Shown here: positions 19,461-34,409 of the stretch, piece by piece
Layout of the letters: every line of letters starts with the position of its first letter
Position numbering within the stretch: position 1 is the first letter of the stretch
Origin: Methylocystis parvus OBBP
Lineage (GTDB): Bacteria > Pseudomonadota > Alphaproteobacteria > Rhizobiales > Beijerinckiaceae
Direction of reading: 5' to 3'
NCBI RefSeq assembly: GCF_027571405.1
Contig: NZ_CP092968.1
Coordinates: 124,001 to 188,000, forward strand
Length of the DNA stretch: 64,000 nucleotides
Made by a program: the position numbers and the translations under genes
Notes under the pieces: model-generated
What the model was told of the DNA's origin: nothing
Database searches by the model: none
Seen by the model: only the letters and a program-made list of their open reading frames with translations

Positions 19461-20333
19461 TCAGCCGCCCTTCCGCATCAGCATCCCACGCGCCGGGTCG
19501 TAAGCGATGATCGCCGCGATCAGGAAGACGCTCGTATACCCCGTGACCGCGAGCAGCGAGACCCATTCAATCTGTTGATAGAAGGCGAAGCGGATCAGCT
19601 CGACGGCGTGGGTGAAGGGATTGACCGAGCAGACGTAATAAAGCCAAGGGCTCGACTCCTTCACGCGCCAGAGCGGATAGAGCGCGGAAGAGGCGAAGAA
19701 CATCGGGAAGATGACGAAGTTCATCACGCCCGCGAAATTTTCGAGCTGCTTGATGAGCGAAGAAAGCAGCATGCCGAGCGCGCCCAGCATGAGCCCGCCG
19801 AGCGCCAGCGCCGGCAGCACGGTCAGATAGCCCCATTTCGTCGGCGGCTCGATCTCCCAGAAATAAGCGATGAGCAGGAAAGCGTAGACCTGCAGGATCG
19901 ACACGGCGACGCCGGCGAAAAGCTTGGCGCCGAGCAGGAACCAGCGCGGGAAGGGCGAGACGAGCAACGTCCGCATATTCCCCATCTCCCGGTCGTAGAC
20001 CATGGAGAGGGACGACTGCATGCCGTTGAAGAGCTGGATCATCGCCATGAGGCCGGGCGCGATATAGACCTCGTAAAGCACGTAGGTTTCGTAAGGCGGG
20101 ATGATCGAAATGCCGAGCACCTGCCGGAAGCCGGCCGCGAAGATGAAGAGCCAGACGAGCGGCCGCACGAGCGCGGAAATGAAACGCTCGCGCTGATGCA
20201 GAAAGCGCAAGCCCTCGCGCCAGACGACGCCCATGAGGCAGATGAGATATTGGCGCGCGCTAAACCCCCTCTCCCCCCTCGCGGGGAGAGGGTTGGGGTG
20301 AGGGGCAGGGCCGCTGGTCCGGCTCATCGTCAT
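19461..20333 (-). CDS. lutF: ABC-2 type permease of the PQQ/lanthanide-linked ABC system (LutF-like)
   Basis: 290 residues from the ATG at 20333. An ABC-2 membrane protein with about six helices (LVRPLVWLFIFAAGF, GLMAMIQLFNG, FAGVAVSILQVYAFLLIAYF, ALALGGLMLGALGMLLSSL and others) and the motif MVYDREMGNMRTLLVSPFP. It is the permease partner of LutE. In Methylorubrum extorquens the lut genes are needed for lanthanide transport. The first 23 residues (PAPHPNPLPARGERG) are translated dispersed repeat. The next in-frame ATG (20234) would delete residues resembling homologue N-termini (RQYLICLMGVVWRE), so the repeat seems to have replaced the original start. Confidence 0.82.
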   Translation of the reverse strand: MTMSRTSGPAPHPNPLPARGERGFSARQYLICLMGVVWREGLRFLHQRERFISALVRPLVWLFIFAAGFRQVLGISIIPPYETYVLYEVYIAPGLMAMIQLFNGMQSSLSMVYDREMGNMRTLLVSPFPRWFLLGAKLFAGVAVSILQVYAFLLIAYFWEIEPPTKWGYLTVLPALALGGLMLGALGMLLSSLIKQLENFAGVMNFVIFPMFFASSALYPLWRVKESSPWLYYVCSVNPFTHAVELIRFAFYQQIEWVSLLAVTGYTSVFLIAAIIAYDPARGMLMRKGG

Positions 20334-20413
20334 CTGAGCGCGCTCTTGATTTTCGAGATCGTCATTGCCGCTCGCCCCTCACCCTCACCCTCTCCCCGCT
20401 TGCGGGAAGAGGG
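20265..20413. repeat. Inverted pair of dispersed palindromic repeats between lutE and lutF
   Basis: 20265-20306 and 20374-20413 are inverted relatives of one GC-rich family (CTCTCCCC...GGGGAGAG with a CACCC/GGGTG flank). They overlap both genes: the last nine residues of LutE (SLFPQAGRG) and the first part of LutF are encoded by them. Related elements occur at 55993-56093, 57556-57672 and 58621-58733. Confidence 0.8.
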
Positions 20414-21140
20414 AATTGGCGCCTGTGATCGTCGCGAAAGCTGCGCCAATATCCGACGCGTTATTCTCCGCCACAATATCCGCCGCCCGGCCCGCCGCCA
20501 GCGCCTTGCCGTGATGCAGGATGACGACCTGATCGTCGTCCTCGATTTCGTCGATGAGATGGGTGGTCCACAAAACGCCGAGGCCCTCGTCGCTCACCAG
20601 TCCGCGCACATGGGCGAGGAGGTCGGCGCGCGCCTTGATGTCGAGACCGACGGTGGGCTCGTCGAGCAGAAGCAGCTTCGGCTTGTGCAGCAGCGCGCGG
20701 GCGATCTCGACGCGGCGCATCTGGCCGCCCGAGAGCGCGCGCGCTTTGTCATTCGCCCGCTCCGCGAGCCCGGCGCGCGCGAGCGCCGCCATGCCCAATC
20801 GACGCGCTTCCAGCGGTCCGATTCCGTGCAGCGCCGCGTGATAGACGAGGTTCTGAATCAGCGAGAGTTCAAGATCGAGCGTGCGCGCCTGAAAGACGAC
20901 GCCGAGGCTGCGCAGCGCCGCGCCCGGGTCGCGCATGACATTGGCGCCGAAAATATCGATCTCGCCGTTACGCGCCGCGTAAAGCCGCGTCACGAGCGAG
21001 AAGAGCGTGCTCTTGCCGGCGCCATTGAGCCCGAGCAAAACCGTGAAGCTCCCCGGCGCGACGGTGAAGGATACGTCGTCGAGCGCCTTACGTGATCCGT
21101 AAGAGTGGGAGAGATGAGAAATGGAGAGGGCGTCTATCAT
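20385..21140 (-). CDS. lutE: ABC transporter ATP-binding protein, PQQ/lanthanide-linked (LutE-like)
   Basis: 251 residues from the ATG at 21140, preceded by AAAAGGGAGC; an upstream frame runs through a dispersed repeat. ABC ATPase motifs: Walker A LGLNGAGKST, Q-loop VVFQARTLDLELS, signature LSGGQMRR, Walker B LLLLDEPTVGLD, and H-loop TTHLIDE. The NLVYHAALHGI segment and the gene context match the family named ATP-binding protein of the PQQ-dependent alcohol dehydrogenase system (TIGR03864), the LutE group. It drives the LutF permease, using LutA as binding protein, probably for lanthanide or chelated lanthanide movement across the inner membrane. Confidence 0.87.
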   Translation of the reverse strand: MIDALSISHLSHSYGSRKALDDVSFTVAPGSFTVLLGLNGAGKSTLFSLVTRLYAARNGEIDIFGANVMRDPGAALRSLGVVFQARTLDLELSLIQNLVYHAALHGIGPLEARRLGMAALARAGLAERANDKARALSGGQMRRVEIARALLHKPKLLLLDEPTVGLDIKARADLLAHVRGLVSDEGLGVLWTTHLIDEIEDDDQVVILHHGKALAAGRAADIVAENNASDIGAAFATITGANSLFPQAGRG

Positions 21141-21177
21141 GCTCCCTTTTCCGCCGCCATTGCGTGGAGCGTCAGCG

Positions 21178-21240
21178 ACGAAGCAATCCAGAGCCACATT
21201 GACGCCCCTGGATTGCTTCGCTGCGCTCGCAATGACGGCT
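21178..21240. repeat. Dispersed palindromic repeat (GGATTGCTTCG family)
   Basis: CGAAGCAATCCAG and CTGGATTGCTTCG form the dyad, followed by GCTCGCAATGACGG. A second copy is at 50420-50487 and a fragment (CTTCGCTCGCAATGACGGCG) at about 14728-14747. It lies in the lutD-lutE gap. Confidence 0.75.
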
Positions 21241-21285: not shown

Positions 21286-22365
21286 TCATTGCGGCGCCAC
21301 CACGACGCCCCAGGGAAAAGAGCCGACCGGAATCGACTTCACCACTTTCAGATTCGCCACGTCGATCACCGACACGTCATTTGAGACGCCGTTCGCGGTG
21401 AGCAGATATTTTTCATCCGGCGTAAAGGCGAGGTGCCAGACGCGCTGTCCGACGAGGAGATATTTCTCGACCTTCTTCGTCTCCGCGTCGATCACCGCAA
21501 CGCGGTTCGCCGGGCCGAGCGCGACGAAGGCGCGTTTGCCGTCCCTGGTGATGGAAACGCCGATGGGCTGGATCGCCTCTTTCGACATTCCGGGAATTTC
21601 GAAGCTGATCTTCTGCTTCAGCTCTTTTTTGATCGGATCGATCACGGCGACTGTGCCGCCGACCTCCGACGACACCCAAAGCTCGCTGCCGTCTTTCTTG
21701 AATTCCGCAAATCTTGGACGTCCGTCGACGAGAATATTGGCGACGATCTGCTTCGTCCGCGTGTCGATGAGATGCGCCATATTCGTCGTTTCCGACGTAT
21801 TGACGAGCAGTTTGCCGTCGGGGCTCACGGCCATGCCTTCCGGTTCGACGCCGACTGGGATGTCGCCGATCTGCTCCCTGCGCTTCACGTCGATGAGCGT
21901 GACGAGATTGTCGTTCTCGTTGGAGACGTAAATCGTGTCGCCGCCCGGCGAGAGCGCGAGCAATTCGGGATCGGGTCCGGAGGGCAGCTTGCCGGTGAGC
22001 TTCAGCGTCTTGGTGTCGAGGACCTGAATGGCGTCGTCGTCGCCCGCGCAGATGTAAAGCTCCGTGCCGTCCTTGTTCAACTCGATGCCGCGCGGACGAC
22101 GGCCGACTTTCACCGTCGCCGTCGCCGCCAGCCTGTCCGTGTCGATGACGGTGATCGAGTTGCCTTTTTCATTGCTGATATAGGCTGTGTAGGCGAAAGC
22201 CGGGGAGACGGAGAGCAGCGTAATGAACAGCGCTGTAGCAACCGCATGCACGTCATGCCCGCGCTTGTCGCGGGCATCCACGCCGCGCGGCTCGTTTGCT
22301 TGGCGTGGATGGCCGGGACAAGTCCGGCCATGACGGGGGGAGACGCCGGCAAAGAACTTGTTCAT
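21286..22365 (-). CDS. lutD: Periplasmic YVTN beta-propeller protein, PQQ/lanthanide-linked (LutD-like)
   Basis: 359 residues from the ATG at 22365, which overlaps the lutA stop as ATGA. About seven YVTN-type blades are visible (AYISNEKGNSITVIDT, LYICAGDDDAIQVLDT, IYVSNENDNLVTLID, LLVNTSETTNMAHLID and so on), as in the PQQ-dependent catabolism-associated beta-propeller family (TIGR03866). The hydrophobic signal segment ATALFITLLSVSPAFA starts only about residue 42. Residues 11-38 are a translated palindromic repeat inserted into the signal peptide. A GTG at 22251 would give a shorter leader without basic residues. Its role in lanthanide uptake or dehydrogenase assembly is not settled. Confidence 0.85.
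   Translation of the reverse strand: MNKFFAGVSPRHGRTCPGHPRQANEPRGVDARDKRGHDVHAVATALFITLLSVSPAFAYTAYISNEKGNSITVIDTDRLAATATVKVGRRPRGIELNKDGTELYICAGDDDAIQVLDTKTLKLTGKLPSGPDPELLALSPGGDTIYVSNENDNLVTLIDVKRREQIGDIPVGVEPEGMAVSPDGKLLVNTSETTNMAHLIDTRTKQIVANILVDGRPRFAEFKKDGSELWVSSEVGGTVAVIDPIKKELKQKISFEIPGMSKEAIQPIGVSITRDGKRAFVALGPANRVAVIDAETKKVEKYLLVGQRVWHLAFTPDEKYLLTANGVSNDVSVIDVANLKVVKSIPVGSFPWGVVVAPQ
22252..22334. repeat. Cloverleaf-like dispersed repeat inside the lutD signal-peptide region
   Basis: The outer dyad GTCATG / CATGAC encloses two small hairpins (CCCGCG...CGCGGG and GGCCGG...CCGGCC) and a central ATCCACGCC / GGCGTGGAT stem. The element is translated in frame in lutD. Related words (GTCATGCCCGG...GACCGGGAATCC) occur near 41084. 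Confidence 0.75.
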
Positions 22366-23540
22366 TTCAACCTGCATTTCGTTTCGGGCTGATCCGGCCC
22401 CAGCGTGTCGAGCTCCGTCATCTGATGCAGAAAGCCTTCCTGCGGCGAGACGGAGACGGTCATGCGGCCGTCAGAGAGAAGGATGGGCTGCCGCAATTGC
22501 TGGTTCCACGGGCGCAGCGTCTGGCGAACGCCCTTGAAAGCGGCGATGGAGAAATCCTTGCCGAGCATGAAGTCGCGAATTTTCTCCGGCGCGTTCGAAC
22601 CGGTGCGCGTCGCCGCTTCGCCGATCATGCGCATGGCGAGCCAGGCATTGTTGTCGCGCGCATTCATCAGGCGACGAAAGGCCGCCATGAAGCGGTTCTG
22701 CAATTGGCGCGCGCCCCATTGCTCATGCGCGGCGTCCCAGCTCGTGGGATAGAGCCCCGCCGAGCCCGCGACCGGGCGCGGGTCCCATGTGCGATAGGGG
22801 AGATAGCCCGCGAAGACTTCGCTTTCGTCGACCGCGACCAGCGCGTCGTAAACCGGCGCGTTTTGCGTCAGAACCGGCATCTGGCGCTGCGTCTGCACGG
22901 AGCCCGAGTCGCTGCGCCGCCCTCCGCCTGTGTCTTCATAGACGCGCTCTTCGACGATCTTCGCGCCGAACTTCTTCGCCGCGCGTCGATAGGCCTGCGC
23001 CAGCAATTCGTCCTGCTCATGCGAGCCCTTGATCAGCAGCCATTTGCGCCACTGTTTCCAGACGAGATATTGCGCGAGCGCATCGGCGAGCATGGCGCGC
23101 GACGGCGCGACATGGATGACGTTGGCGCGGCAGTCTTCCTCACGCAAGCGCTCATCGGGCGCGGAGACGTTGAAGAGAAGCGCGCCTTTCGACTTCGCGC
23201 GTTCGCTCGCCATCAAAAGGCGATCGGGCGCGAGATCGGCGATGATGAATAGCGCGCCCTTCTCGGTCAGCGTATCGACCCCAGCGGCGATATCCGCGCC
23301 CTCTTCAAGCTTTTCGTCGAGAGCTTCGAATGTCTGATTGGTGAATTTGCCGGTCGTATTGTTGTCGGCGGCGCCGAGAAGCGCGCCCGCGAGCGTATCG
23401 TCCGCGGCGGGAATATCCAGAATGGAGAGGGTTTCCGTCGAATGCAATTCGCGCAGCACGCCGATTTTCACATTCAGCGCATCGGCCGCGACGGGCGTGG
23501 CGGCCAGTAAAAGAATGCAAGCGGCGGCGAGGCGTTTCAT
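22362..23540 (-). CDS. lutA: Periplasmic substrate-binding protein of the PQQ/lanthanide-linked ABC system (LutA-like)
   Basis: 392 residues; signal peptide MKRLAAACILLLAATPVAADA. A type I periplasmic-binding fold related to the Leu/Ile/Val receptors: KIGVLRE, ALFIIADLAPDRLL, ALLFNVSAPDERLR, WKQWRKWLLIKGSHEQDELL, VAVDESEVFAGYLPYRTWDPRPVAGSAGL (read in pieces). It matches the family described as substrate-binding protein of the PQQ-dependent alcohol dehydrogenase system (TIGR03863); LutA of methylotrophs belongs here. It overlaps lutD by four bases (ATGA), so the two are translationally coupled. The ligand is inferred to be a lanthanide species. Confidence 0.86.
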   Translation of the reverse strand: MKRLAAACILLLAATPVAADALNVKIGVLRELHSTETLSILDIPAADDTLAGALLGAADNNTTGKFTNQTFEALDEKLEEGADIAAGVDTLTEKGALFIIADLAPDRLLMASERAKSKGALLFNVSAPDERLREEDCRANVIHVAPSRAMLADALAQYLVWKQWRKWLLIKGSHEQDELLAQAYRRAAKKFGAKIVEERVYEDTGGGRRSDSGSVQTQRQMPVLTQNAPVYDALVAVDESEVFAGYLPYRTWDPRPVAGSAGLYPTSWDAAHEQWGARQLQNRFMAAFRRLMNARDNNAWLAMRMIGEAATRTGSNAPEKIRDFMLGKDFSIAAFKGVRQTLRPWNQQLRQPILLSDGRMTVSVSPQEGFLHQMTELDTLGPDQPETKCRLK

Positions 23541-23603: not shown

Positions 23604-24005
23604 TCAGCGGGTCAGGCGCAGAACGGCCTTGCCCTTCTTGGACGCGAATTCCTTGTCATCCAGCGTGCCGTCATTGTCCGGATCGGCGTCCTTGAAAAGC
23701 GAAGCGGCGGCGGCGAGGAATTCATTCTTGTCCAGCGTGCCGTCATTGTCGGGATCGGCCGCCTTCAGTTCTTTCTTGGAAAGACGGCCCTGCAACTCCT
23801 TCGAGTCGAGCGTTCCATCATTGTCCTTTTCAAGCTTTTCGAAGAGCGCTTCCACAGCCTTGTTGAGCTCGTTGATGTCGACCGTCGCGTCGTTGTCCGT
23901 GTCGAGCGTCGCCACGGGAGACGCTTTTTTGGCGAAAGCCGGTTCGATCGGCGCAGCGATTATCGTGGCCGCCGTAAGCGCCGCGGCAAGAAAGGTCTTG
24001 TTCAA
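23604..24005 (-). CDS. lanM: Lanmodulin-like periplasmic EF-hand protein
   Basis: 133 residues from a TTG at 24005 with an excellent AGGAGG five bases upstream; signal peptide NKTFLAAALTAATIIA...AFA. Four EF-hand loops: DTDNDATVDINE, EKDNDGTLDSKE, DPDNDGTLDKNE and DPDNDGTLDDKE, separated by 12, 13 and 12 residues. This compact spacing, total length and C-terminal tail match lanmodulin, whereas calmodulin-type pairs are spaced by about 25. Proline at loop position 2, a lanmodulin hallmark, is kept only in loops 3 and 4. Loop 1 has Ala for Gly6; loop 2 starts with Glu. It should bind rare-earth ions in the periplasm. It lies between lutH and lutA, as expected for a lut locus. Confidence 0.88.
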   Translation of the reverse strand: MNKTFLAAALTAATIIAAPIEPAFAKKASPVATLDTDNDATVDINELNKAVEALFEKLEKDNDGTLDSKELQGRLSKKELKAADPDNDGTLDKNEFLAAAASLFKDADPDNDGTLDDKEFASKKGKAVLRLTR

Positions 24006-24081
24006 GTCAGCCTCCTGTCTGGGAAGAACGGAACCAAATATAGGGAGTTCGTCCCGCGCCGTCATTAGGCGCTCCTGGCTC

Positions 24082-24107
24082 AAAAAAGGCGGCCCCATGG
24101 GGCCGCC
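24082..24107 (-). terminator. Rho-independent terminator between lutH and lanM
   Basis: On the minus strand a perfect stem GGCGGCCCC / GGGGCCGCC (24088-24107) is followed by TTTTTT. It ends lutH transcription, so lanM and lutA-F need their own promoter. Confidence 0.88.
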
Positions 24108-24140: not shown

Positions 24141-27100
24141 TCAAAAGAGATTCGAGCCCCAGTTGAAATGATAGTTGACGCCCGCGCGCAGGATCACGCC
24201 GTCGAACTGGACCTTGGAGACGGGGCTGTTCGCCCAGAGGAGCCCGCCCGGCGCGATGCGATCGGCGCTCGCTTGGCCTCTCGCGCAGGCGCCGCCCGAA
24301 GTGTTCGTCGCCTGACTCGAGCAGACCGTCGCGAGCGGCAAGGAGACGAGGTCGACCGCGCCGAGATTGTAATAAAGGCCCTCCGCCTTGGCGCTCCAAT
24401 TGTCGGCGAACATCCACTCGACGCCGCCGCCCGCCGACCAGCCGGCGCGGACGCCGGAATAGCTGGAGCCTCCGAGGGCGGCGGGATTCGCGTAATTCCA
24501 CGCCAGCACGCCGACGTCATTCTCGCGCTGAATGCTGGACGCGTTGAAATGCGCGGCGGACGCATGGACCTCGCCATAAGCGAGACCGCCCGTGCCGTAA
24601 GCAAGAAGCGTATCGGTGACGGCGTAGCCGACCTTGCCGCGGAAGGTGCCCAACCAGTCCATACCGGCGGAGACCGAACCGCCGCCGACGGCCTGGCGCG
24701 TGATGACGAGGCTCTCAAGCCCGCCGCCCTCGGGCTTGTCGATATAGCCTGCGCGTTCATACAGCGAGCCGTTATATGCGCCCTTGCCGCGGAAGATCGT
24801 TCCCTGGAAATCGGCTTCGGCGCCGAGAACGACACTGGACTCGTCCTGATAATTCCAGCCGATCTGGCCGCCGCCGACGAAGCCGCTGCGGCTGACATTG
24901 GCGATGCCCGAATTTGCGAAGGCCGGCGCGGTGGGCTGGAACAGACCCCACCAGGCGGCGCCGTCGTCCTCGGGCTCCTCGGCGAGGATCTTCTCGTTCC
25001 AAAGCTGCGCGAAGCGGTCGCCAAAGCCGTTGGGATAGACGTTGACGTCGGTCGTGGCGCCCCAGCCATAGCCGGCGTTCAAACCGGCGTAGAGGCCGGC
25101 CCATTTGCGCGGCGTCGGCGCGTCTTCGCCGCGTTCGCGCGCGAGCTGGTCGCGGGCCGAAGCCATCCAACCGGAGGGCTCCGCGCCGAAATTCCATTTC
25201 ATGCCGGCGTAGAAGGCCGTCGGCGGTCCGACGGAAACCATCTTCGGATTCGAGAAATTGGCGAAGTTGATCGAGTCGGTTTCGAAGAAGGTGCCGAAGC
25301 TTCGGGCGCGCGTATTGGTGGCGTTTTCGACCAGCGCATAGAGCTGAAGCGCCTTCGTCACGTCGTAGGAGGTGCGCAGGTTCAGAATGGCGTAGGGCGA
25401 AAGCGTGCCGAACTGATTGGCCCAGTCGCCGACGAGGTAGGAGCCGGCCGCATAGACGAGATCGCCGCCGACCTTCCATCTGGGCGTCACGGCGTAATCG
25501 GCGCCGGCCTTGAAGCGATGCGGCGCGATGCCCGGCAGCGTCGCGCCGGGATTGACGAGTATCGAGGGCGAACCCACGACGAGGGCGGCAGGATTGGCCG
25601 GCGCGCCGAGCCAGTTCTGCGAATTGAAATAGGCGTCGGTCAGCGTGTAGTTCACATAGGCCGACAGGCGCTCGCCGGCATAGCGCATGGACAATTCCAC
25701 GCCCTGACGCACTGTATTGCCGGCATTGGTGAAATAGCCGCGGCCGTTGATGCTGCTCGGTATGCTCAGAATGTCGTTGAAGGCGTTGGTGCGGAAAATT
25801 CCGGCCGACCATTGGACCGTCCCGGGCAACATGCCGAAGGACGGGTGAATATCGGCGGGTCGGAAGCCGCCGCGCAGACCCAGATCGATCGTGTTGGACG
25901 TCACCTGCTTCAGCGGCGGGTCGGAGACGAGGAAAGAGTCGATCAGGCAGGGACGGTTGGGATCCGAGCAGCCGAGCTCCAGCGGAGTCGGCGCGCGGTT
26001 GGCGACCGAATAGCTGCCATAGGCCGCGATCTGGGGCGTAAGCTTGTAGGTCAGGCCGCCCATCGGATTGATGTGGTCGAAGACATTCGTCGAGTTCAGC
26101 GCAATGCCAGCCTGATCGTACATCTGGACGCTGGCGCGGTTGTAGCGCAGGCCGCCCGTCGCGGTGAGCCTGTCCGTCAGATCGAGCGAATCCAGCGCAT
26201 AGGCGCCGAGATAATAGTTGGAGACGCTGAGCTTGACCGGGGAGATTCCCGCGGCGGGCTCATGGGGGAAGAAGTTGAACCCTGTGACGGTATAGTCGGA
26301 ATTGATGATTCCCAATTCTTCGTTCGCCGCGAAATTCGTAAATCCGTGCTCCAGATTGACGCCGGCCGTGAACTTGTTCGGGAAGCCGAAAATCTTGTCG
26401 GTATTGTTGATCTGGCCGGTGAAGCCGAGCGTATTGATCCGGGTCCAGGTGCGGTCGATCGCGCCGAGCGCGGGGCCGCCGGGCGCGGCGTTGAAGAAGT
26501 TCGGAACGCCCGTCGCCGCGCCGTCCCCGGTCTCGCAGAAGGCCTCGCCGTCCTCGCATTCGAACTCGGTCGTATTGCCGTCGACGCGCGCCTGATTATA
26601 GCCGCGATAATGAATGTCGCCGAGGAGCTTCGTCGTCGGATTGACCTGAACCTGACCGTTCAGATCGAACATCATGACCTGATTTTTATAGGTCTGCGGC
26701 GTCGTGTAGGTCGAGGCTTTGTTCGCCGCGACCATATCGACCGGCGCGGGGCCGGAGGCGCCGAAGCGATTGGAGCCGAGCGTGACGTTGGCGTGGACTT
26801 CGGCGTTCTCGCCGCGCCAGCCAAGGTCGCCGTAGAAGCGCTTGATCTGCGAGCCGGAGAAATAGCGATAGCCGGAATCCCCCGCCGCCTCGCCGGCCGC
26901 ATACATGGCGAAGTCGCCGATGCGGCGGCCATATTGGAAGGCGCCCTGGCGGCGGTTGAAGGACCCGCCGCGCAGATCGAGTTCGGCGCCCTGCCAGGTG
27001 AAGCCGTTCTTCATGTCGAGGACGATGGCGCCGCCAATGGCGTTGAGGCCGTAAAGCGGATTGCCGGTCTCGATCGCGACATTGTCGATGGCGACGCTCG

Positions 27101-27623
27101 GGATCAGATCCCAATTGACCGTGTCGCCCCACATCTCGTTGATGCGGACGCCGTTCTGGAACACGGCGAGCCCCTGCGGCACGCCGGCGTAGGGCGAGGC
27201 GACGAAACCGCGATAGTCGACCTCGGGGAAAGAAGGATTGCCGCCGACGTCATTGACGGTCACGCCCGGCGCCGCGCGCACGAGCGCGTCGGCGACGTTG
27301 AACTTGCGTGAATTGGCGATTTCCCTGTCGCTGACGACATGGACCGATGCAGGGACCTGATAGGTGACGAGCGGCGAGACGTAAGGCGCCGGCGCCGTGA
27401 TCGGCGCGGGCTGCGCGACGCGGGCCGCCGACGGCGCGCTGCGCGCCGCGGGGCCGGGCGCCGCCTGCACGGGAGCAGGCGAAGGACGAGCGGCGGAACG
27501 TGAAGAGGATCGCAGCGGCGTCGCGCCGATTTCGATCGTCGGCAAGGATTGCTGCGCGAAAGCCGATCCGGAAGTCAGCGCGGCGCCGAGCGCGATGAGA
27601 GAGACTTGCTTTTTGAACTTCAT
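24141..27623 (-). CDS. lutH: TonB-dependent receptor fused to a second outer-membrane beta-barrel (LutH-like)
   Basis: 1160 residues; signal peptide ending AFA, TonB-box-like LPTIEIGATP, Pro/Ala-rich linker. The plug domain is about 85-220 (NVADALVRAAPGVTVNDVGG, YGLNAIGGAIVLDM). The 22-strand barrel runs to about 811, ending YAGMKWNF with a C-terminal-type aromatic beta-signal. A 25-residue linker then leads to WAGLYAGLNAGYGWG (about 840), the start of an Omp25/RopB-type OMP_b-brl domain that ends VNYHFNWGSNLF at the C-terminus. Ordinary receptors stop at the first signal. An acidic loop with ECEDGEAFCETGDGA is a possible metal site. Neighbours lanM and lutADEF suggest it imports a lanthanide chelate; siderophore uptake is an alternative. 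Confidence 0.88.
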   Translation of the reverse strand: MKFKKQVSLIALGAALTSGSAFAQQSLPTIEIGATPLRSSSRSAARPSPAPVQAAPGPAARSAPSAARVAQPAPITAPAPYVSPLVTYQVPASVHVVSDREIANSRKFNVADALVRAAPGVTVNDVGGNPSFPEVDYRGFVASPYAGVPQGLAVFQNGVRINEMWGDTVNWDLIPSVAIDNVAIETGNPLYGLNAIGGAIVLDMKNGFTWQGAELDLRGGSFNRRQGAFQYGRRIGDFAMYAAGEAAGDSGYRYFSGSQIKRFYGDLGWRGENAEVHANVTLGSNRFGASGPAPVDMVAANKASTYTTPQTYKNQVMMFDLNGQVQVNPTTKLLGDIHYRGYNQARVDGNTTEFECEDGEAFCETGDGAATGVPNFFNAAPGGPALGAIDRTWTRINTLGFTGQINNTDKIFGFPNKFTAGVNLEHGFTNFAANEELGIINSDYTVTGFNFFPHEPAAGISPVKLSVSNYYLGAYALDSLDLTDRLTATGGLRYNRASVQMYDQAGIALNSTNVFDHINPMGGLTYKLTPQIAAYGSYSVANRAPTPLELGCSDPNRPCLIDSFLVSDPPLKQVTSNTIDLGLRGGFRPADIHPSFGMLPGTVQWSAGIFRTNAFNDILSIPSSINGRGYFTNAGNTVRQGVELSMRYAGERLSAYVNYTLTDAYFNSQNWLGAPANPAALVVGSPSILVNPGATLPGIAPHRFKAGADYAVTPRWKVGGDLVYAAGSYLVGDWANQFGTLSPYAILNLRTSYDVTKALQLYALVENATNTRARSFGTFFETDSINFANFSNPKMVSVGPPTAFYAGMKWNFGAEPSGWMASARDQLARERGEDAPTPRKWAGLYAGLNAGYGWGATTDVNVYPNGFGDRFAQLWNEKILAEEPEDDGAAWWGLFQPTAPAFANSGIANVSRSGFVGGGQIGWNYQDESSVVLGAEADFQGTIFRGKGAYNGSLYERAGYIDKPEGGGLESLVITRQAVGGGSVSAGMDWLGTFRGKVGYAVTDTLLAYGTGGLAYGEVHASAAHFNASSIQRENDVGVLAWNYANPAALGGSSYSGVRAGWSAGGGVEWMFADNWSAKAEGLYYNLGAVDLVSLPLATVCSSQATNTSGGACARGQASADRIAPGGLLWANSPVSKVQFDGVILRAGVNYHFNWGSNLF

Positions 27624-27816: not shown

Positions 27817-29133
27817 CTATACTTTCAAACTTGCGCCAAGACGCAGCGTCGTCGAGAGGCTCGCGCCGCCGCCCGGAAGGTTCGTTATCTCCAACGTTCC
27901 GCCGAGCGCGCCGACTCTCTCCGCCATGCCGCGCAGGCCAAGGCCGCCATTGGTCCGGGTTTCAGGCAGGCCTGCGCCGTCATCCGTGACGCAGATGCGC
28001 AGGCGGTCGCCATCGCGCCAAATCGCGACTTCGATGCGCGCCGCGCCCGAATGGCGGAAAGCGTTGGTCAATCCTTCCTGCACGACGCGATAGGCTGTGA
28101 GCGCGGTGATCTCGTCCATCTCGCCGCGCGCGCCTTCGGTTGCGAGTTCGATGTCGACGTCGGCGCGCGTCTCGCGCCATCCCCGCACAAGCGCCTGAAT
28201 TGCGTCGGCGAGCCCCATCTCCGCCAGTGCGGCGGGGCGCAGCCTCCCGAGAATGCGCCGGTTAACCTGCTGCAGGGCGGCGATTTGCGCATCGATCTTC
28301 TCGGCGTCCTCCGCGAGCCGCGCCGGCTCCGCGTCGGGGTTGCGCGCCTTGCGCGCCAGTGCTCCGACGCCAGCGCGCACGGTGAAGAGAAAGGGTCCGA
28401 TTTCGTCATGCAGATCGCGCGCAATGTCGCGGCGTTCTTCGTCCTGCACATGGATCATGCGCCGCAGGAGGAGACGGTTCTCCTCGTCGAGACGCTCGAG
28501 CGTGGCGGCGAGCGCATTGATGCGTTCCGCAATCGCGACGAATTCCGGCGGACCGTCGGCCGGAACGCGCATGGCGCGATCGCCCTGTTCGAGCCGCAGC
28601 AGCCCTTCGGACAATGACGCAATGGGACGCAGCGTGCGCGAGACCGCGTAGGAAACGAGCGCGAAAGCCGCGCCCGCGACGGCTGTTGCGCCAATGGCGA
28701 GCCAGACGATCTCCTGCCAGATTTCGTCGATTTCATCCGCGGGATTTGCGGCGATGTCGATCGCGCCGAGCGGCGTCTCGATTCGCGTCGGCGGCGGCGC
28801 GCGGAACACCAGCGCGCTGAACCATTCGGGCGCAGGCTTTTCAGCCGGCTGGACGGGACCTTCCTGTCCTTCAAAAGTCGCTCGGACATGGCGCAGCCGC
28901 CGCAGGTCTTCGAGCAGCTCCGCAACTTCCGATTTCGGATCGCTCGACGTCGAAAGGCGGGGCAGGGTTGCGTAAACGAGATCGCGCGCAAGTCGCGTCG
29001 CGCCTTCCGCCTCGGCGTTGACGCGGGATCCGGCATGCAGGATCAACAGTCCCACGCCAAAGAGGAGGCCCGCCGCCAGCACGCCGCCGAGCAGCAGCGA
29101 CAGACGCGCGCGTAGGGACAGTCTTTGGAGCAT
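27817..29133 (-). CDS. NarL-family sensor histidine kinase (HisKA_3)
   Basis: 438 residues. TM1 is at about 10-32 (LLLGGVLAAGLLFGVGLLIL), with a periplasmic domain of about 110 residues and TM2 at about 143-165. A HAMP follows (SRTLRPIASLSEGLLRLEQGD). The phospho-acceptor block is DEERRDIARDLHDEIGPFLF with the HisKA_3 histidine. HATPase_c shows VVQEGLTNAFRHS, VTDDGAGLP and GGLGLRGMAERV. It resembles kinases of methanol and alcohol oxidation (MoxY/FlhS-like), but that is a context inference. The partner regulator is divergent at 29320. The position beside lutH suggests control of lanthanide or alcohol-oxidation genes. Confidence 0.88.
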   Translation of the reverse strand: MLQRLSLRARLSLLLGGVLAAGLLFGVGLLILHAGSRVNAEAEGATRLARDLVYATLPRLSTSSDPKSEVAELLEDLRRLRHVRATFEGQEGPVQPAEKPAPEWFSALVFRAPPPTRIETPLGAIDIAANPADEIDEIWQEIVWLAIGATAVAGAAFALVSYAVSRTLRPIASLSEGLLRLEQGDRAMRVPADGPPEFVAIAERINALAATLERLDEENRLLLRRMIHVQDEERRDIARDLHDEIGPFLFTVRAGVGALARKARNPDAEPARLAEDAEKIDAQIAALQQVNRRILGRLRPAALAEMGLADAIQALVRGWRETRADVDIELATEGARGEMDEITALTAYRVVQEGLTNAFRHSGAARIEVAIWRDGDRLRICVTDDGAGLPETRTNGGLGLRGMAERVGALGGTLEITNLPGGGASLSTTLRLGASLKV

Positions 29134-29266: not shown

Positions 29267-29319
29267 GGCTCACCGTCGCAGATTGTCCTTTGCTCAACTG
29301 CGCAAAATGTGGAGTAGCA

Positions 29320-29940
29320 ATGCGCGTTCTTATCGTCGACGACCATCCGATCATCGTGGCGGGCTGTTCGGCCATGCTCGCCGGCGAAGGCGACATAGAA
29401 GTGTTCAACGCGCGCGACGCCGAGACGGGGCTCGTGGCTTTTCAATCGCACAAGCCGGACGTCACCGTCGTCGACATCGCCATGCCCGGCCCCTCCGGAC
29501 TCGAATTGACGCGGCGCATATTGGATTGCGACCCTGCCGCGCGCATCGTCGTCTTCAGCATGAATGACGATCCGATCTTCGCCGCGCGGGCGATCGAGGC
29601 GGGAGCCAAGGGGTATGTCACCAAGAATGACGATCCCTATCTGCTGCTGAAGGCGGTGCGGGAGGTCGCGGAGGGCGGCGTGTTCCTGATGCCGAAAATC
29701 GCCAATCAGCTGGCCTTCGAGAAAAGCGGCGGCGCCGTCAGTCCGCTCTCGGCGCTCACGGGGCGCGAACTCGAAATATTGCGCATGCTTGGCGCGGGCC
29801 TCGGCATGGCGGAGATCGCCGAGGCGACGCAGGTCTCCTACAAGACGATCGCCAATAGCTGCTCGATCATGAAGCGCAAACTTGGCGCCCGCACGCCGAT
29901 GGAGCTGATGAAGATCGCTCTGGAGCAGAAGCTGGCGTGA
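29320..29940 (+). CDS. NarL/LuxR-family response regulator
   Basis: 206 residues from the ATG at 29320, with GGAG seven bases upstream. The receiver has VLIVDDHPII, the phospho-Asp in PDVTVVDIAMPGPSG (about residue 53), a Ser switch residue (VVFSMNDD) and Lys in GAKGYVTKND. The C-terminal LuxR helix-turn-helix is LTGRELEILRMLGAG...MAEIAEATQVSYKTIAN, ending RTPMELMKIALEQKLA. It pairs with the divergent HisKA_3 kinase. The closest functional analogues by architecture are MoxX/FlhR/ExaE-type activators of alcohol-oxidation genes, but no target can be assigned from sequence alone. Confidence 0.88.
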   Translation: MRVLIVDDHPIIVAGCSAMLAGEGDIEVFNARDAETGLVAFQSHKPDVTVVDIAMPGPSGLELTRRILDCDPAARIVVFSMNDDPIFAARAIEAGAKGYVTKNDDPYLLLKAVREVAEGGVFLMPKIANQLAFEKSGGAVSPLSALTGRELEILRMLGAGLGMAEIAEATQVSYKTIANSCSIMKRKLGARTPMELMKIALEQKLA

Positions 29941-30019: not shown

Positions 30020-31048
30020 TTACTTCGCCGCCGCGTCCGGATAAGGCTCCGGCGCCGAGTAATTGGCCGGAACCGCTCCCGTCAGGCTCCCGAGAAAGGC
30101 CACGATCTCCGCCGCGTCCGCGTCGCTCAGCGTCTCGCCGAGCTGGACCTTCCCCATGACCTTCACGGCTTTGGTCAGATCGGCGACCGAACCGTCGTGA
30201 AAATAAGGTGCCGTCTTGGCGACGTTGCGCAGGCTCGAGACCTTGAAGACATAAAGATCCGCGTCGTTCTTCGTGACGTCGGCGCGGCCCTTGTCCGGCG
30301 TCTTGGAGCCGGTCTCGGTCCAGTAATCCGCGCTCACGCCGAATTTCTGAAAAGAGTCGCCGCCGATGCCCGGGCCGTTATGGCAGGAGGCGCAGCCCGT
30401 ATCGATGAATTTGCGCAGGCCCGCCTGCTCCTGCGGCGAGAGCGCCTTTGCGTCGCCGGCGAGGAAAGCGTCGAATTTCGAGGGCGTGAGCAGCGTCCGC
30501 TCGAAGGTCGCGACGGCCGCGCCCCAATTCTTCGAGTTGATGGGGTCCTTGTCGTCGGGAAAGGCCTTGGCGAAAGCCTCGGCATAGGCCGGAATCGCCT
30601 TCAGCTTGCTCATCGCCGTCGCCTGATCCGGATTGCCGAAGCTTGCCGGCCCGAGCAGCGATTTTTCGGCTTGCTCCTCAAGCGTTTCGCGGTCGCCGCG
30701 CCAATGCTGTTTGACGTTCAGGCTGGCGTTGAAAATCGACGGCGCGTTGCGCGGGTTTTCCTTGCCGAAGACGCCGATCGCCTTGGGGAGCCCGTCCGTC
30801 GCCTGCTTGTCGGGCAGATGACAATGCGAGCAGCTGACATTGCCGTCCATGGAGACGCGATTTTCGAAGAAAAGCCGACGGCCGAGCGCGGCCCGCGCTG
30901 TCTGCGTCGATTCCGTCGCGGCCGGCTTGATCGGCTGGAAAGACGCCTGGGCATCGGAAAGAAGCTTCCTGGCGTCAAGCGGCTCGGCCCAGGCCGGAGC
31001 GGCGAGAACCGCCACAGTCAATGAAACCAAAAAACGCAAATTGCGCAT
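30020..31048 (-). CDS. Di-heme cytochrome c peroxidase / MauG-superfamily protein
   Basis: 342 residues; signal peptide ending APAWA. Two c-type heme sites, CSHCH (about 72-76) and CASCH (about 220-224), sit in the two halves of a CCP/MauG fold. Landmarks are LGRRLFFENRVSMDGNVS, KENPRNAPSIFNASL and VFKVSSLRNVAKTAPYFHDG. Such periplasmic enzymes reduce H2O2 with cytochrome c, or (MauG) oxidise a protein cofactor. It lies 148 bp downstream of pqqA but a terminator separates them. Peroxidase activity is the simplest assignment; a MauG-like maturation role for a quinoprotein is conjecture. Confidence 0.88.
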   Translation of the reverse strand: MRNLRFLVSLTVAVLAAPAWAEPLDARKLLSDAQASFQPIKPAATESTQTARAALGRRLFFENRVSMDGNVSCSHCHLPDKQATDGLPKAIGVFGKENPRNAPSIFNASLNVKQHWRGDRETLEEQAEKSLLGPASFGNPDQATAMSKLKAIPAYAEAFAKAFPDDKDPINSKNWGAAVATFERTLLTPSKFDAFLAGDAKALSPQEQAGLRKFIDTGCASCHNGPGIGGDSFQKFGVSADYWTETGSKTPDKGRADVTKNDADLYVFKVSSLRNVAKTAPYFHDGSVADLTKAVKVMGKVQLGETLSDADAAEIVAFLGSLTGAVPANYSAPEPYPDAAAK

Positions 31049-31195: not shown

Positions 31196-31273
31196 TTAGA
31201 TTTCAGCCGACGAGTAGGCGGTGACTTCCATGCCAACGCAAACTTCGACGATCACAGGGGTGGTCCAAGCCAT
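31196..31273 (-). CDS. pqqA: PqqA, precursor peptide of pyrroloquinoline quinone
   Basis: 25 residues, starting MAWTTPVIVEVCVGMEVTAY and ending SSAEI. The E-V-T-x-Y motif places Glu16 and Tyr20 exactly where PqqA carries the two residues that PqqE cross-links to build PQQ. The ATG at 31273 is seven bases from GGAGGA; an upstream ATG at 31279 is too close. Length and motif make the call near certain despite the small size. pqqBCDE are not in the window, so this is a detached copy, possibly one of several. PQQ is the cofactor of methanol and lanthanide-dependent alcohol dehydrogenases, which fits the adjacent lut genes. Confidence 0.95.
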   Translation of the reverse strand: MAWTTPVIVEVCVGMEVTAYSSAEI

Positions 31274-31668
31274 TGTCATTTCCTCCGTTTCGAACTTCGG
31301 CGGCTGTGTCCTGCTCTTGTTCCCGGCTGCTTGGGCTGGGCCATAGGGGCAGGTTCAAGCTCGGCGAGAGCATTATCATGATCGCCAGGGGCGTGCAATT
31401 GACCCGCCGCGCGCATTTTCGGGAAAAAGAGGAACTCTCTGGGCCGAGACTGCCCGCTCCCGGCGTGCGACGCCCAAGCGTCTCGACACGAGGCGTGACG
31501 GCTGATAGGCATAGCGCGCCTTCCGGTAAAAGCTCCGGAAGCGCGTCAAGCAAAAAACTTCAGAGTTTTCCTCCTTCTAAGAGCAAAGCGAGGGCGACTC
31601 TGGCCCGCGCGTTCAAAGAGCGCGGCGAACTCAACGACCGCCCTGGAGCGGCACGAGGCAAGAAGCGG
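31274..31668. other. Divergent control region, pqqA / fhcBADC
   Basis: 395 bp with no supported gene, although the fhcB frame is open across it. A hairpin TTCCGG (31521-31526) / CCGGAA (31535-31540), extended by GCGC on each side, lies about 130 bp before fhcB. Promoters for pqqA and fhcB must be here; no clear sigma70 hexamers seen. Confidence 0.4.
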
Positions 31669-32781
31669 ATGAGCAAAGCTTCGCTCGACGGCAAAGCGAT
31701 TGCGCTCGATGACGCCTTTAAGCAGGCGGCGAGCATTTTGAGCGGCGCCAAATTTCCCCTCGTCGCGGGGCTGGGCGCCGACGTCCCGGGCGCCCGCGCG
31801 GCGATCCTTCTGGCGGAGCGGCTGCGCGGGGCCTTCGACCATCTCGCTTCGCGTGATTCCCTCGTCGATCTCGACGTGAAGCGCTCCTTCGGCATGTTCA
31901 CCACGACCGCGAATGAAGCGCGCGTGCGCGCCGATGTCGTGATTCTTGTCGGCCCCGGCCTCACGAAGCAGTGGCCCGGCATGCTGGAGCGTCTTGCGCT
32001 GGATCAGGCCCCCCGGCACGGAACCCATGCCGGCCAGCCGCGCAAGGTGATCTGGATCGGTCCCGACGCTAGCGAAGCCGGCGCCGTCCCCGGCGCCAAG
32101 GTCGTTCCGGCGAGCTTGCAGGAAATCCCCGGCGTTCTCGCTGTATGGCGCGCCCGCGTCGGCGGCCGCCGCGTCAATCCGGAGAAAATCGACGCCGCCA
32201 AGCTCGAACTCGTGGACGGGGTCGCCGACACGCTCAGAAACGCCAAATTCGGCTGCTTCGTCTGGGCGTCCGCCATCGGTCTGGACGCGCTGACCGTCGA
32301 GATGATGCAGGCGCTCGTCACCGACCTCAACGTCACCACGCGCTTCACCGGCCTGCATATCGGCGGTCGCAGCGGCGCCTCGGGCGTCACGCAGGTCGCC
32401 GGCTGGATGACGGGCTTTCCGCCGCGCACGGGCTTCGGTCGCGGCTATCCCGAGCATGATCCGTGGCGCTTCGAGGCGTCGCGCCTCGTCGACAGCGGCG
32501 AGGCGGACGCGGCTCTTTGGATTTCAGCCTTTGACGGCGAGGCGCCGTCCTGGTCGCGGAGCGATATTCCGCTGATCACGCTGGCCCCGGCCGGCGCCGC
32601 GCCGTCGCGCGGGCTTTATATCGAAGTCGGCCAGCCCGGCGTCACCCATGACGCCGTGCTCATGGCCCAGGAGACGGGCGGACTGACGCTGCGCGCGGCC
32701 ACGGCGCCGTCCGACGCGCCGACGGTCGCGCAAGTCATCGACGCCATCATGGCGAATGTTTCGGAGGTCGCGCCTTGCTGA
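31669..32781 (+). CDS. fhcB: Formyltransferase/hydrolase complex subunit B
   Basis: 370 residues from the ATG at 31669 (GAGG upstream). Homologous to the FwdB/FmdB subunit of formylmethanofuran dehydrogenase but lacking Fe-S cysteine clusters, as in the bacterial Fhc complex, which does not use molybdopterin chemistry. Visible landmarks: FPLVAGLGADVPGARAAI, DVKRSFGMFTTTANEARVRAD, GGRSGASGVTQVAGWMTGFP and GYPEHDPWRFEA. In methylotrophs Fhc converts formyl-tetrahydromethanopterin to formate through a methanofuran analogue. It is the first gene of fhcBADC and overlaps fhcA. Confidence 0.93.
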   Translation: MSKASLDGKAIALDDAFKQAASILSGAKFPLVAGLGADVPGARAAILLAERLRGAFDHLASRDSLVDLDVKRSFGMFTTTANEARVRADVVILVGPGLTKQWPGMLERLALDQAPRHGTHAGQPRKVIWIGPDASEAGAVPGAKVVPASLQEIPGVLAVWRARVGGRRVNPEKIDAAKLELVDGVADTLRNAKFGCFVWASAIGLDALTVEMMQALVTDLNVTTRFTGLHIGGRSGASGVTQVAGWMTGFPPRTGFGRGYPEHDPWRFEASRLVDSGEADAALWISAFDGEAPSWSRSDIPLITLAPAGAAPSRGLYIEVGQPGVTHDAVLMAQETGGLTLRAATAPSDAPTVAQVIDAIMANVSEVAPC

Positions 32782-34409
32782 CAGTTTTGCGTGGCGGCCA
32801 TGTCGTCGATCCGGCGACGGGCAAGGACAGCGTCGGCGACGTCTGGTTCGAGGACGGCCGCATCGTCGCGCCGCCGGCCGGCGGCAAGGCCGATCAGGAG
32901 ATCGACGTCTCCGGCCATGTCGTGATGGCGGGCGCGATCGACATTCACTCCCACATCGCCGGCGGCAATGTGAACACGGCGCGCCTGCTGCTCCCCGAGC
33001 TGCATCGCGGCATTCGCGCGCGCCTCGCCAATACGCCGCTCTCGACGGCCAAATGGTCGACCTATGAGACCGGCCGTCTCTACGCGCAGATGGGCTTCAC
33101 GACGGTCGTCGAACCGGCGATGGCGCCGCATCATTCGTTGCAGACGCATTACGAACTCAACGACGTGCCGATCATCGACAAGGGCGCGCTGACGGTTCTC
33201 GGCAATGACGATTTCCTGCTGCGCCAGATCCGCGCCGGCGAGTCAGAGAGCGCGATCAACGACTATGTCGCGCAGACGGTGAGCGGCACGCGCTCGCTGG
33301 GCCTCAAATGCATCAATCCGGGCGGCTGCGAGGCCTTCAAGGAGAATATGCGCGCCTTCGGGCTCGACGACGAGGTGCCTTTCTACGGCACGACCTCGCG
33401 CCAGATTTTCCAGACGCTGCAGAAGGCGACGCAGGCGGTGGGCATCCATCACCCGCTGCATCTGCACATGAACAATCTGGGCATCGCCGGAAATATCGAC
33501 ACGGCGCTCGCGACGATCGACGCGTCGCAGGGCCTGCCGCTGCATCTCGCCCATATCCAGTTCTACGCTTACGGCAAGGAAGGAAAGAACGCCTTCTCGT
33601 CGGCCGCGGCGGCTTTCGCCGAGAAGATCAACGCCAATCCGAACGTCACGGTCGACGTCGGGCAGGTGATGTTCTCGCAGACGGTGACGATCTCCTCCGA
33701 CGTGCTGAAGCAGTTCAACAGCATGCCGGGCGCCAGCCCGAAGAAGGGCGCGATCTTCGACGGCGACGCCAATGGCGGCGGCATCGTGCCTTACGCCTAC
33801 AAGGTCTCAAACTACTATAACGCGATCCAGTGGGCGGCGGGTCTGGAGCTGTTCCTGCTCATCAAGAACCCGGAGCAGGTCTTCTTCACCACCGACCATC
33901 CGAATGGCGGCCCGTTCACGGCCTATCCGGAGCTCTTCGCGCTGCTGATGAGCGCGGAGCTGCGCGAGGAGATGCTGTCGCGCCTGCCGGCCGAGGTGCT
34001 GGAGCACACGACGCTGCCCTCGCTCAAGCGCGAATATAATTATTACGAGATCGCGCAGATGAGCCGCTCCGGCGCCGCGAAGCTCTTCGGCTTCAAGGAC
34101 CGCGGAACGCTCGAGCCGGGCTCGATCGCCGACATCGCGGTCTATAAGAAGAATCGCGACGTCGCCGGCATGTTCCGCAAGGCGGCTTACGTCTACAAGG
34201 ACGGCGAGCTTGTCGTGAAGGATGGCGAGGTCTCGCATTACAAGCGCGGCAAGACGCTGCATATCAGCCCGCGCTACGACGCCAACATCAACAAGCGTCT
34301 CGACGCCTATTACGAGGAGCTTTACGGCCTGCCGCGCGGCATTTTCGACGTGCCCGACGCCGCTCTGCCGAACAAGGACGCCTTTGCGGAGGTTGCATGC
34401 AAGGAATAG
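32775..34409 (+). CDS. fhcA: Formyltransferase/hydrolase complex subunit A (amidohydrolase)
   Basis: 544 residues from a TTG at 32775 with GGAGG eight bases upstream; it overlaps the fhcB stop. Amidohydrolase fold with the zinc motif DIHSHIAGGNVN (about 55-66), a likely carboxylated-Lys strand near LKCINPGG, HHPLHLHMNNLG and a late Asp in FFTTDHPNGGPFTAYPE. It hydrolyses the formyl group from the formyl-methanofuran analogue to give formate. C-terminal GTLEPGSIADIAVYKK is the usual small beta-domain. Together with FhcB, D and C it forms the cytosolic complex of formaldehyde oxidation. Confidence 0.94.
   Translation: MLTVLRGGHVVDPATGKDSVGDVWFEDGRIVAPPAGGKADQEIDVSGHVVMAGAIDIHSHIAGGNVNTARLLLPELHRGIRARLANTPLSTAKWSTYETGRLYAQMGFTTVVEPAMAPHHSLQTHYELNDVPIIDKGALTVLGNDDFLLRQIRAGESESAINDYVAQTVSGTRSLGLKCINPGGCEAFKENMRAFGLDDEVPFYGTTSRQIFQTLQKATQAVGIHHPLHLHMNNLGIAGNIDTALATIDASQGLPLHLAHIQFYAYGKEGKNAFSSAAAAFAEKINANPNVTVDVGQVMFSQTVTISSDVLKQFNSMPGASPKKGAIFDGDANGGGIVPYAYKVSNYYNAIQWAAGLELFLLIKNPEQVFFTTDHPNGGPFTAYPELFALLMSAELREEMLSRLPAEVLEHTTLPSLKREYNYYEIAQMSRSGAAKLFGFKDRGTLEPGSIADIAVYKKNRDVAGMFRKAAYVYKDGELVVKDGEVSHYKRGKTLHISPRYDANINKRLDAYYEELYGLPRGIFDVPDAALPNKDAFAEVACKE

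Follow-up and report, generated by a model that had tools for sequence, protein, structure and literature searches.

The window analysed here is a 64,000-nucleotide stretch of the genome of Methylocystis parvus OBBP (contig NZ_CP092968.1, positions 124,001 to 188,000). It contains a gene in which a LutH-like TonB-dependent receptor is continued, in the same reading frame, by a second and smaller outer-membrane β-barrel (Table 1). The frame is open without a break through 1160 codons from ATG to stop. Based on Pfam, the protein includes a plug at residues 89–199 and a TonB receptor barrel at residues 304–767; both matches (PF07715 and PF00593) exceeded their cut-offs, and fold comparison agreed with a plug plus a TonB barrel. 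The C-terminal stretch of the receptor, ...GPPTAFYAGMKWNF, ends at F812, and 28 residues further on the small barrel opens with WAGLYAGLNAGYGWG. The first-pass annotation of this DNA had described a TonB receptor and an Omp25-type barrel in one frame, complete at both ends, which the intact frame and the structure model confirm. The aromatic receptor end and the linker that it had noted also exist, but the former lies at F812 instead of about residue 811, and the latter comprises 28 residues instead of 25. The assignments of a signal peptide and a TonB box at the N-terminus are putative.

PF13505 matched the small barrel at residues 909–1087 below its threshold (21.3 bits against a cut-off of 28.7), and precomputed annotations place this family in 4 of 25 fused relatives (P0003, P0005, P0007 and P0011). 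The terminal Phe that had been assigned to the small barrel is present in the window protein, but the final residue varies among the 25 fused relatives. The conserved end signal of this barrel is more likely ...GVNYHFNW, located about 7 residues before the C-terminus. We regard this anatomy and the assignment of the receptor to LutH as highly probable.

Table 1. Features of the fused gene and of the surrounding locus in the window
Feature	Position	Strand	Basis
Fused gene, 1160 amino acids (aa): LutH-like TonB-dependent receptor plus C-terminal 8-stranded barrel	24141..27623	−	sequence, model
Putative signal peptide (about residues 1–24), then conserved QQSLPTIEIGATPLRS, probable TonB-box region	27552..27623	−	sequence, conserved among fused relatives
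Receptor, residues 89–812: plug (Pfam 89–199) and barrel up to F812	25188..27359	−	
Linker, residues 813–840 (28 aa), low model confidence	25104..25187	−	
Small 8-stranded barrel, residues 841–1160, starting at W841	24144..25103	−	
lanM (lanmodulin), next gene downstream	23604..24098	−	NF053806, 154.6 bits vs cut-off 135
lutA-type periplasmic binding protein	22362..23540	−	TIGR03863, 462.3 bits vs cut-off 413.6
Pyrroloquinoline quinone (PQQ)-associated β-propeller protein	21286..22377	−	TIGR03866, 509.9 bits vs cut-off 287.3
lutE-type ATP-binding cassette (ABC) ATPase	20385..21197	−	TIGR03864, 332.4 bits vs cut-off 302.25
lutF-type ABC permease	19461..20333	−	TIGR03861, 395.6 bits vs cut-off 241.35
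Sensor histidine kinase, upstream of the receptor; also neighbours the receptor in unfused lut clusters	27817..29133	−	
Response regulator, divergent	29302..29940	+	

Structure prediction of the full chain, which had been proposed as a check, yielded two closed barrels (predicted template modelling score, pTM, 0.64) joined by a linker most of whose residues scored below 50 in the predicted local distance difference test (pLDDT). With two complete closed barrels predicted in one chain, the protein would fall among the multi-barrel outer-membrane proteins. Modelled alone, the small barrel reached a pLDDT of 90.9 and appears to be an OmpA/OmpW-like barrel of 8 strands; four of these are 31–35 residues long in the model, and the barrel should project well above the membrane. 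Its best matches by fold, with tied Z scores, were a Legionella porin, OmpA and OmpW; NspA also matched. Foldseek with the small barrel alone gave poor superpositions, with root-mean-square deviations of 14.5–31.3 among the 50 matches listed. No two-barrel PDB entry appeared among the fold-comparison matches listed, which is not evidence of absence.

Barrels of the TonB-dependent receptor family have 22 strands. Even strand numbers would put the linker and both chain ends in the periplasm, and thus two barrels in series meet no topological obstacle. The folding problem for the β-barrel assembly machinery (BAM) that had been raised earlier would not be one of topology. With a periplasmic linker, the small barrel would have to sit beside the receptor, so that a lid, one of the functions first considered for it, is unlikely.

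Conservation, origin and loss of the fusion

From a protein search, 25 fused clusters were selected for being full-length: the window protein and 24 other non-redundant proteins with coverage of 94–100% and identity of 62–88% (one of them, P0009, lacks the N-terminus). The junction is read through in all 25, with a linker of 27–35 residues; L044/P0026, which stops shortly past the receptor, is the counter-example to this selected set. The guanine-plus-cytosine (GC) content at third codon positions of the same frame is 0.82 before the linker, 0.83 within it and 0.83–0.84 after it. Ratios of nonsynonymous to synonymous substitution (dN/dS) were calculated for eight pairs of fused genes, seven of which were usable (L042–L046 was saturated). 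They amounted to 0.10–0.19 for the receptor and 0.19–0.37 for the small barrel, and to 0.13–0.62 for the linker, where the estimate covers 26–27 codons only. These ratios indicate that both barrels are under purifying selection. The relatives, the GC content and dN/dS all agree with one frame, and the sequencing error or missed stop codon that had been feared near the junction is excluded as far as sequence allows. One further frame is also open across the junction stretch; openness alone is not proof, while conservation in relatives is. On the opposite strand, a 1047-aa open frame (24168–27311, plus strand) is probably a G+C-rich shadow frame.

That assembly or gene calling joined two separate genes is practically excluded, since many independent genomes and metagenomes carry the fusion and the fused genes are under purifying selection. 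Nothing was found in support of such an artefact; the nearest thing is a separate 366-aa model (P0216, Methylocystis sp. JAN1), which starts at an internal Met in the last part of the receptor. P0216 may represent a broken, split or mis-called receptor. It was considered, together with P0217, P0223, P0224, P0227 and P0229, as a free barrel from a split gene, and all six were rejected because they begin within the receptor.

A tree of the receptor part alone was built from 94 rows (25 fused proteins, 60 listed unfused proteins and 9 loci). It was a quick tree supported by the Shimodaira–Hasegawa-like approximate likelihood ratio test (SH-aLRT) alone, with long-branch warnings for L059, L015, L066, P0085 and L012, none of them within the fused group. 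The fused proteins form one group with an SH-aLRT of 100 and a stem of 0.40 changes per site. L044/P0026/P0028 and P0027 also fall inside this group. Of these, P0027, labelled as unfused in the tree, is a fused protein cut short within the barrel, and P0028 stops before the junction and is uninformative on fusion. L044 and P0026 end with ...NFDAEPTGLMAWAPN, that is, the receptor plus a leftover of the linker, and no small barrel was found in the 14.4 kb of L044. In the genome that carries the L044 gene (G138), the receptor is 82% identical to the window protein, and the match ends at residue 831 with a stop there. The three state changes in the tree thus reduce to one gain and one sure loss, since P0027 is cut short and P0028 is uninformative. 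By these trees and alignments, the fusion was gained once and lost at least once, surely in L044/P0026. In a tree of small barrels (99 rows), the 14 fused barrels used of the 25 form one clade, also with an SH-aLRT of 100. We conclude from the relatives that the fusion is genuine, old and kept by selection.

For comparison, 82 unfused relatives of 741–899 aa were taken from P0029–P0120 by length only. Their last residue is F in 61, Y in 20 and L in 1, and the matching place in the fused proteins is occupied by F in 13 and Y in 12, i.e., it is aromatic in 25 of 25.

The genus survey covered 39 Methylocystis genomes, including M. parvus OBBP, with a match threshold of E 1e-100. A match was obtained in 37 of them, and the two genomes without one are 77% and 73% complete. 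The fused gene occurs in 13 of the 39 (G145 and G139 matched only partly), 23 contain only an unfused LutH of 56–60% identity, and the remaining matching genome is G138 with its truncated receptor. One genome of the survey, G113, carries both forms. Mutual exclusion of fused and unfused LutH, which held for 13 of the 13 genomes first compared, is broken by G113. In the collection of named genomes, where 80 of 133 loci were kept, both parts lie in one frame at nine loci (L038–L043, L045, L046 and L054), all titled Methylocystis, Methylocystaceae or Alphaproteobacteria, and one further locus is the truncated L044. In the remaining 70 of the 80, the receptor frame contains no small barrel; every locus titled Methylobacterium, Methylorubrum, Methylocapsa or Methylosinus belongs to this group. 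A search for the same fusion in Methylosinus and Methylocystis receptors had been proposed as a check; other Methylocystis do have it, and it was confined to Methylocystis-type genomes, with none in the two Methylosinus loci inspected (L059 and L061).

The lut locus and the lanthanide assignment

Within 8.2 kb of the locus, lutA, lutE, lutF and lanM all exceed their NCBIfam cut-offs. Five loci titled Methylocystis or Methylocystaceae (L047, L048, L049, L050 and L052) share this gene order and have, in the same place, an unfused receptor that is 60% identical; the sequence of L049 ends before the permease gene. The fused protein is the single LutH-like receptor in the M. parvus OBBP genome, where the next TonB receptor matched with an E value of only 2e-11. 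With its similarity to LutH and its place at the head of a lut cluster next to lanM, the fused receptor is very probably the lanthanide receptor, and the early suspicion that metal was involved gains from the same position.

According to passages of PMC7391723, the combined loss of lutH and mxaF in Methylorubrum extorquens AM1 arrested growth on methanol with La3+, and La3+ represses the lutH promoter about fourfold. Like LutH of M. extorquens AM1/PA1, the receptor part of the fused protein consists of a plug and a barrel. Many Methylobacterium loci contain lut genes, as does the window, and some contain lanM. The Methylobacterium and Methylorubrum loci show 37–41% identity to the window protein over the receptor part, but they match it only up to residues 809–849 (891 in L091), and none of their receptor frames has a small-barrel match. 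PqqU/YncD and other TonB transporters of known structure are more distant, with 20% identity and no second barrel; the PqqU model of NCBIfam gave 67 bits on the window receptor against a cut-off of 1200.

The location of the receptor was compared in ten genomes with the fused gene (the window, G099–G104 and G106–G108). The full lut cluster surrounds it in one, the window, and the fused gene adjoins lanM in two others (G103 and G106). Neither lanM nor lutA was found in the flanks examined in seven of the ten, some of these flanks being short (about 2–3 kb downstream in L043 and L038). The receptor has moved away from the lut locus in most of the fused-gene genomes compared, and the truncated gene of G105 likewise lies away from the lut cluster. 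Two loci, L167 (G108) and L169 (G105), retain a lut cluster with no lutH between the kinase and lanM; no remnant of lutH was detected in the kinase–lanM gap of either genome (best tblastn match E 0.76). At L054 (strain B8), the fused gene has a CNNM/CorC-type gene on one side and 2-oxoglutarate dehydrogenase genes on the other.

Next to the lut cluster of the window, a gene for a MauG-like di-heme protein (30020–31048, minus strand; PF03150, under the NCBIfam cut-offs) has counterparts in the same position in L047–L050 and L052. Genes similar to formylmethanofuran dehydrogenase subunits B and A (C1 metabolism) are found nearby at 31273–34409 on the plus strand, with A above and B below the cut-off.

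Other chains with more than one barrel

The first-pass annotation knew of no well-studied protein with two barrels in series, which was too strong a statement. Outer-membrane proteins with several barrels have already been described as a class (Solan et al. 2021, as cited in passages of PMC8592465 and PMC11494523), and the same passages report for GfcD predicted barrels of 12 and 13 strands with a periplasmic domain between them. GfcD/YjbH and the window protein have in common more than one β-barrel per chain, but the latter combines a TonB receptor with an 8-strand barrel through a linker of merely 28 residues. A literature search, in which subscription journals were thinly covered, found no paper in which the title or the opening of the abstract describes LutH fused to a second barrel, and the words 'barrel', 'fusion' and 'Omp25' are absent from the main text of a survey of LutH in methanotrophs (PMC12482762). 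LutH and multi-barrel chains are each known; no publication that unites the two in a lanthanide receptor came up in this search.

The small-barrel type itself occurs on other chains. The search for long proteins with this barrel found 247, of which 120 are listed and were classed by their Pfam column. The listed set comprises 25 LutH fusions and 95 other chains: 37 with ShlB/FhaC or its POTRA domain, 22 with a TonB receptor barrel, 8 with an alginate-export barrel, 1 with an autotransporter barrel and 27 with small-barrel or porin families only or nothing. Among the matches listed, 19 of the 22 TonB chains have four small-barrel matches and 3 have three. LutH can be aligned with the receptor part of these chains over 50–70 residues at best, apart from a longer weak alignment in P0168. 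Methylocystis and its neighbours seem to have a single type of small barrel that serves as a movable unit, in up to four copies, on TonB receptors, pores of two-partner secretion and alginate exporters.

These 22 TonB receptors (P0168, P0180, P0182 and 19 more; 1155–1932 aa) are possible five-barrel proteins, and P0168 has four PF13505 stretches. In P0166 (1555 aa), five consecutive PF13505 stretches are the only Pfam domains. The M. parvus OBBP genome itself contains an 852-aa frame with an alginate-export barrel and a C-terminal small barrel (L163:1801-4356, minus strand). A 593-aa frame (L164:1060-2838, minus strand) begins with a small barrel and continues for about 280 residues, possibly as another barrel (ending VTGVGMKF), and at L165:1756-5036 (plus strand) there are three consecutive small-barrel frames, 34–37% identical to the fused barrel.

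Possible roles of the second barrel

The fused barrels (25) were compared with 83 free relatives, using membrane borders that we set from the model. The fused barrel resembles the Omp25/PF13505 small barrels of Rhizobiales in its WxGxYxGLNAGY start and 8 strands, and its identity to free single-barrel relatives, several of them named Methylocystis, is about 37–48%. Unlike the free barrels, it has no signal peptide of its own and has C1101 and C1113, both found in every one of the 25 fused sequences and in none of the 83 free ones, as well as additional periplasmic acids. At D927, in the first periplasmic turn, all 25 fused barrels and none of the free ones have an acid, and positions 928 and 1074 carry one in 80% of the fused against about 1% of the free barrels; D1074, like D927, lies in a periplasmic turn. 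On the extracellular side, acids are enriched at 882 (68% of fused vs 2% of free), 883 (64% vs 1%), 965 (60% vs 1%) and 970 (92% vs 12%). The whole-barrel isoelectric point is 5.1 in the 25 fused barrels against 6.6 (n = 85).

We suggest that the chain is one polypeptide with two outer-membrane barrels side by side, the small one acting as a tethered lateral partner of the receptor; as an overall explanation this has about an even chance of being right. BAM would recognise an aromatic end signal twice, at F812 and then at the C-terminus, and would fold both barrels. TonB would power the import of a lanthanide, or of a lanthanide–metallophore complex, through the receptor alone, and the small barrel would be a fixed neighbour at the receptor rim and not an uptake pore. 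It may set the position and spacing of the receptor relative to the free small barrels in that membrane. A general role of this kind, in placing, spacing or stabilising, is somewhat short of even odds in our estimate; we rate it above lanthanide binding, since chains with quite different jobs carry this type of barrel as well. ShlB/FhaC, alginate-export and unrelated TonB chains all carry it; none of them is named as a lanthanide protein, and few are named at all. Moreover, the receptor exists without the small barrel, both in unfused LutH and after the secondary loss in L044/P0026. Three points weigh against a general lateral partner. The relative position of the two barrels is not defined in the full-chain model, and the lanthanide function, although strongly indicated, is deduced from gene context and homology. 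In addition, the cysteines and acids found only in the fused barrel, and others strongly enriched there, show that this copy was specialised for some particular purpose, for which a generic partner role offers no explanation.

Another possibility is a surface metal trap, the first function proposed for the small barrel, in which its tall, acidic extracellular part would gather lanthanide ions or complexes at the receptor mouth and raise their local concentration. The lanthanide context of the receptor fits this idea, as do the four enriched loop acids and the first loop of the window barrel, NEKILAEEPEDDG. The extracellular net acid is +4.2 in the fused barrels against +0.9 in the free ones and +1.4 in the barrels of the 95 other chains (Mann–Whitney p 8e-5 for fused vs free), but the 25 fused barrels share one origin and the p-value treats kin as independent. 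Extracellular net acid also spans −2 to +12 among them, and of the fused-specific loop acids 970 alone is near-constant. The most constant fused-only acid, D927, is periplasmic, as is D1074. Furthermore, total chain charge hardly rises, because the receptor domain carries less net acid in the fused proteins than in the unfused ones (8.5 vs 13.2). The trap thus has modest support and is rather unlikely, though to be taken seriously. A more elaborate version, which we consider a long shot, is a two-barrel lanthanide harvester, in which a tall cation-gathering barrel, braced by the fused-only pair of extracellular cysteines, would load the adjacent TonB receptor.

Alternatively, the small barrel may assist assembly or retention, either by offering BAM a second, strong C-terminal signal or by stabilising the receptor after insertion. 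Its C-terminal position in 25 of 25 fused LutHs would suit this, and small barrels also terminate a ShlB/FhaC chain (P0142) and TonB-receptor chains. Nevertheless, 81 of 82 unfused LutHs carry an ordinary aromatic residue at their end and do without a helper, and in an alginate-export chain (P0169) one small barrel is located at the N-terminus. We regard this function as unlikely. Cutting of the linker after folding, which would release two independent proteins, appears distinctly improbable: the linker is charged, modelled with low confidence and the fastest-changing part in most pairs, but its length stays at 27–35 residues in all 25 proteins, and a signal peptide is present at 24 of 25 N-termini examined in free small barrels. 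In 22 of these 25, the signal peptide is followed by ADLP, mostly with a proline-rich stretch. Brucella Omp25 is linked to peptidoglycan through its N-terminus, as reported in passages of PMC12729407. This route of anchoring would be closed to the fused barrel, because it lacks the free mature N-terminus that LD-transpeptidase linkage uses.

If the harvester were real, it would be a cell-surface machine for capture and import in one chain, confined to one Methylocystis branch. The fusion itself is a naturally occurring example, maintained by selection, of a chain with two barrels of unequal size, with which the handling of such chains by BAM becomes testable; natural controls exist in the single-barrel version of sister species and in the loss variant L044/P0026. 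The fused receptor further suggests that rare-earth uptake by methanotrophs has a component that is yet to be studied, and a small-barrel module carried on several chain types opens the purpose of an extra barrel to comparison. Two further two-barrel frames, G089:C1:4163408-4165123 (614 aa) and G101:C29:27803-29482 (657 aa), contain barrels that are 51–54% identical to the fused barrel and closer to it than the free ones.

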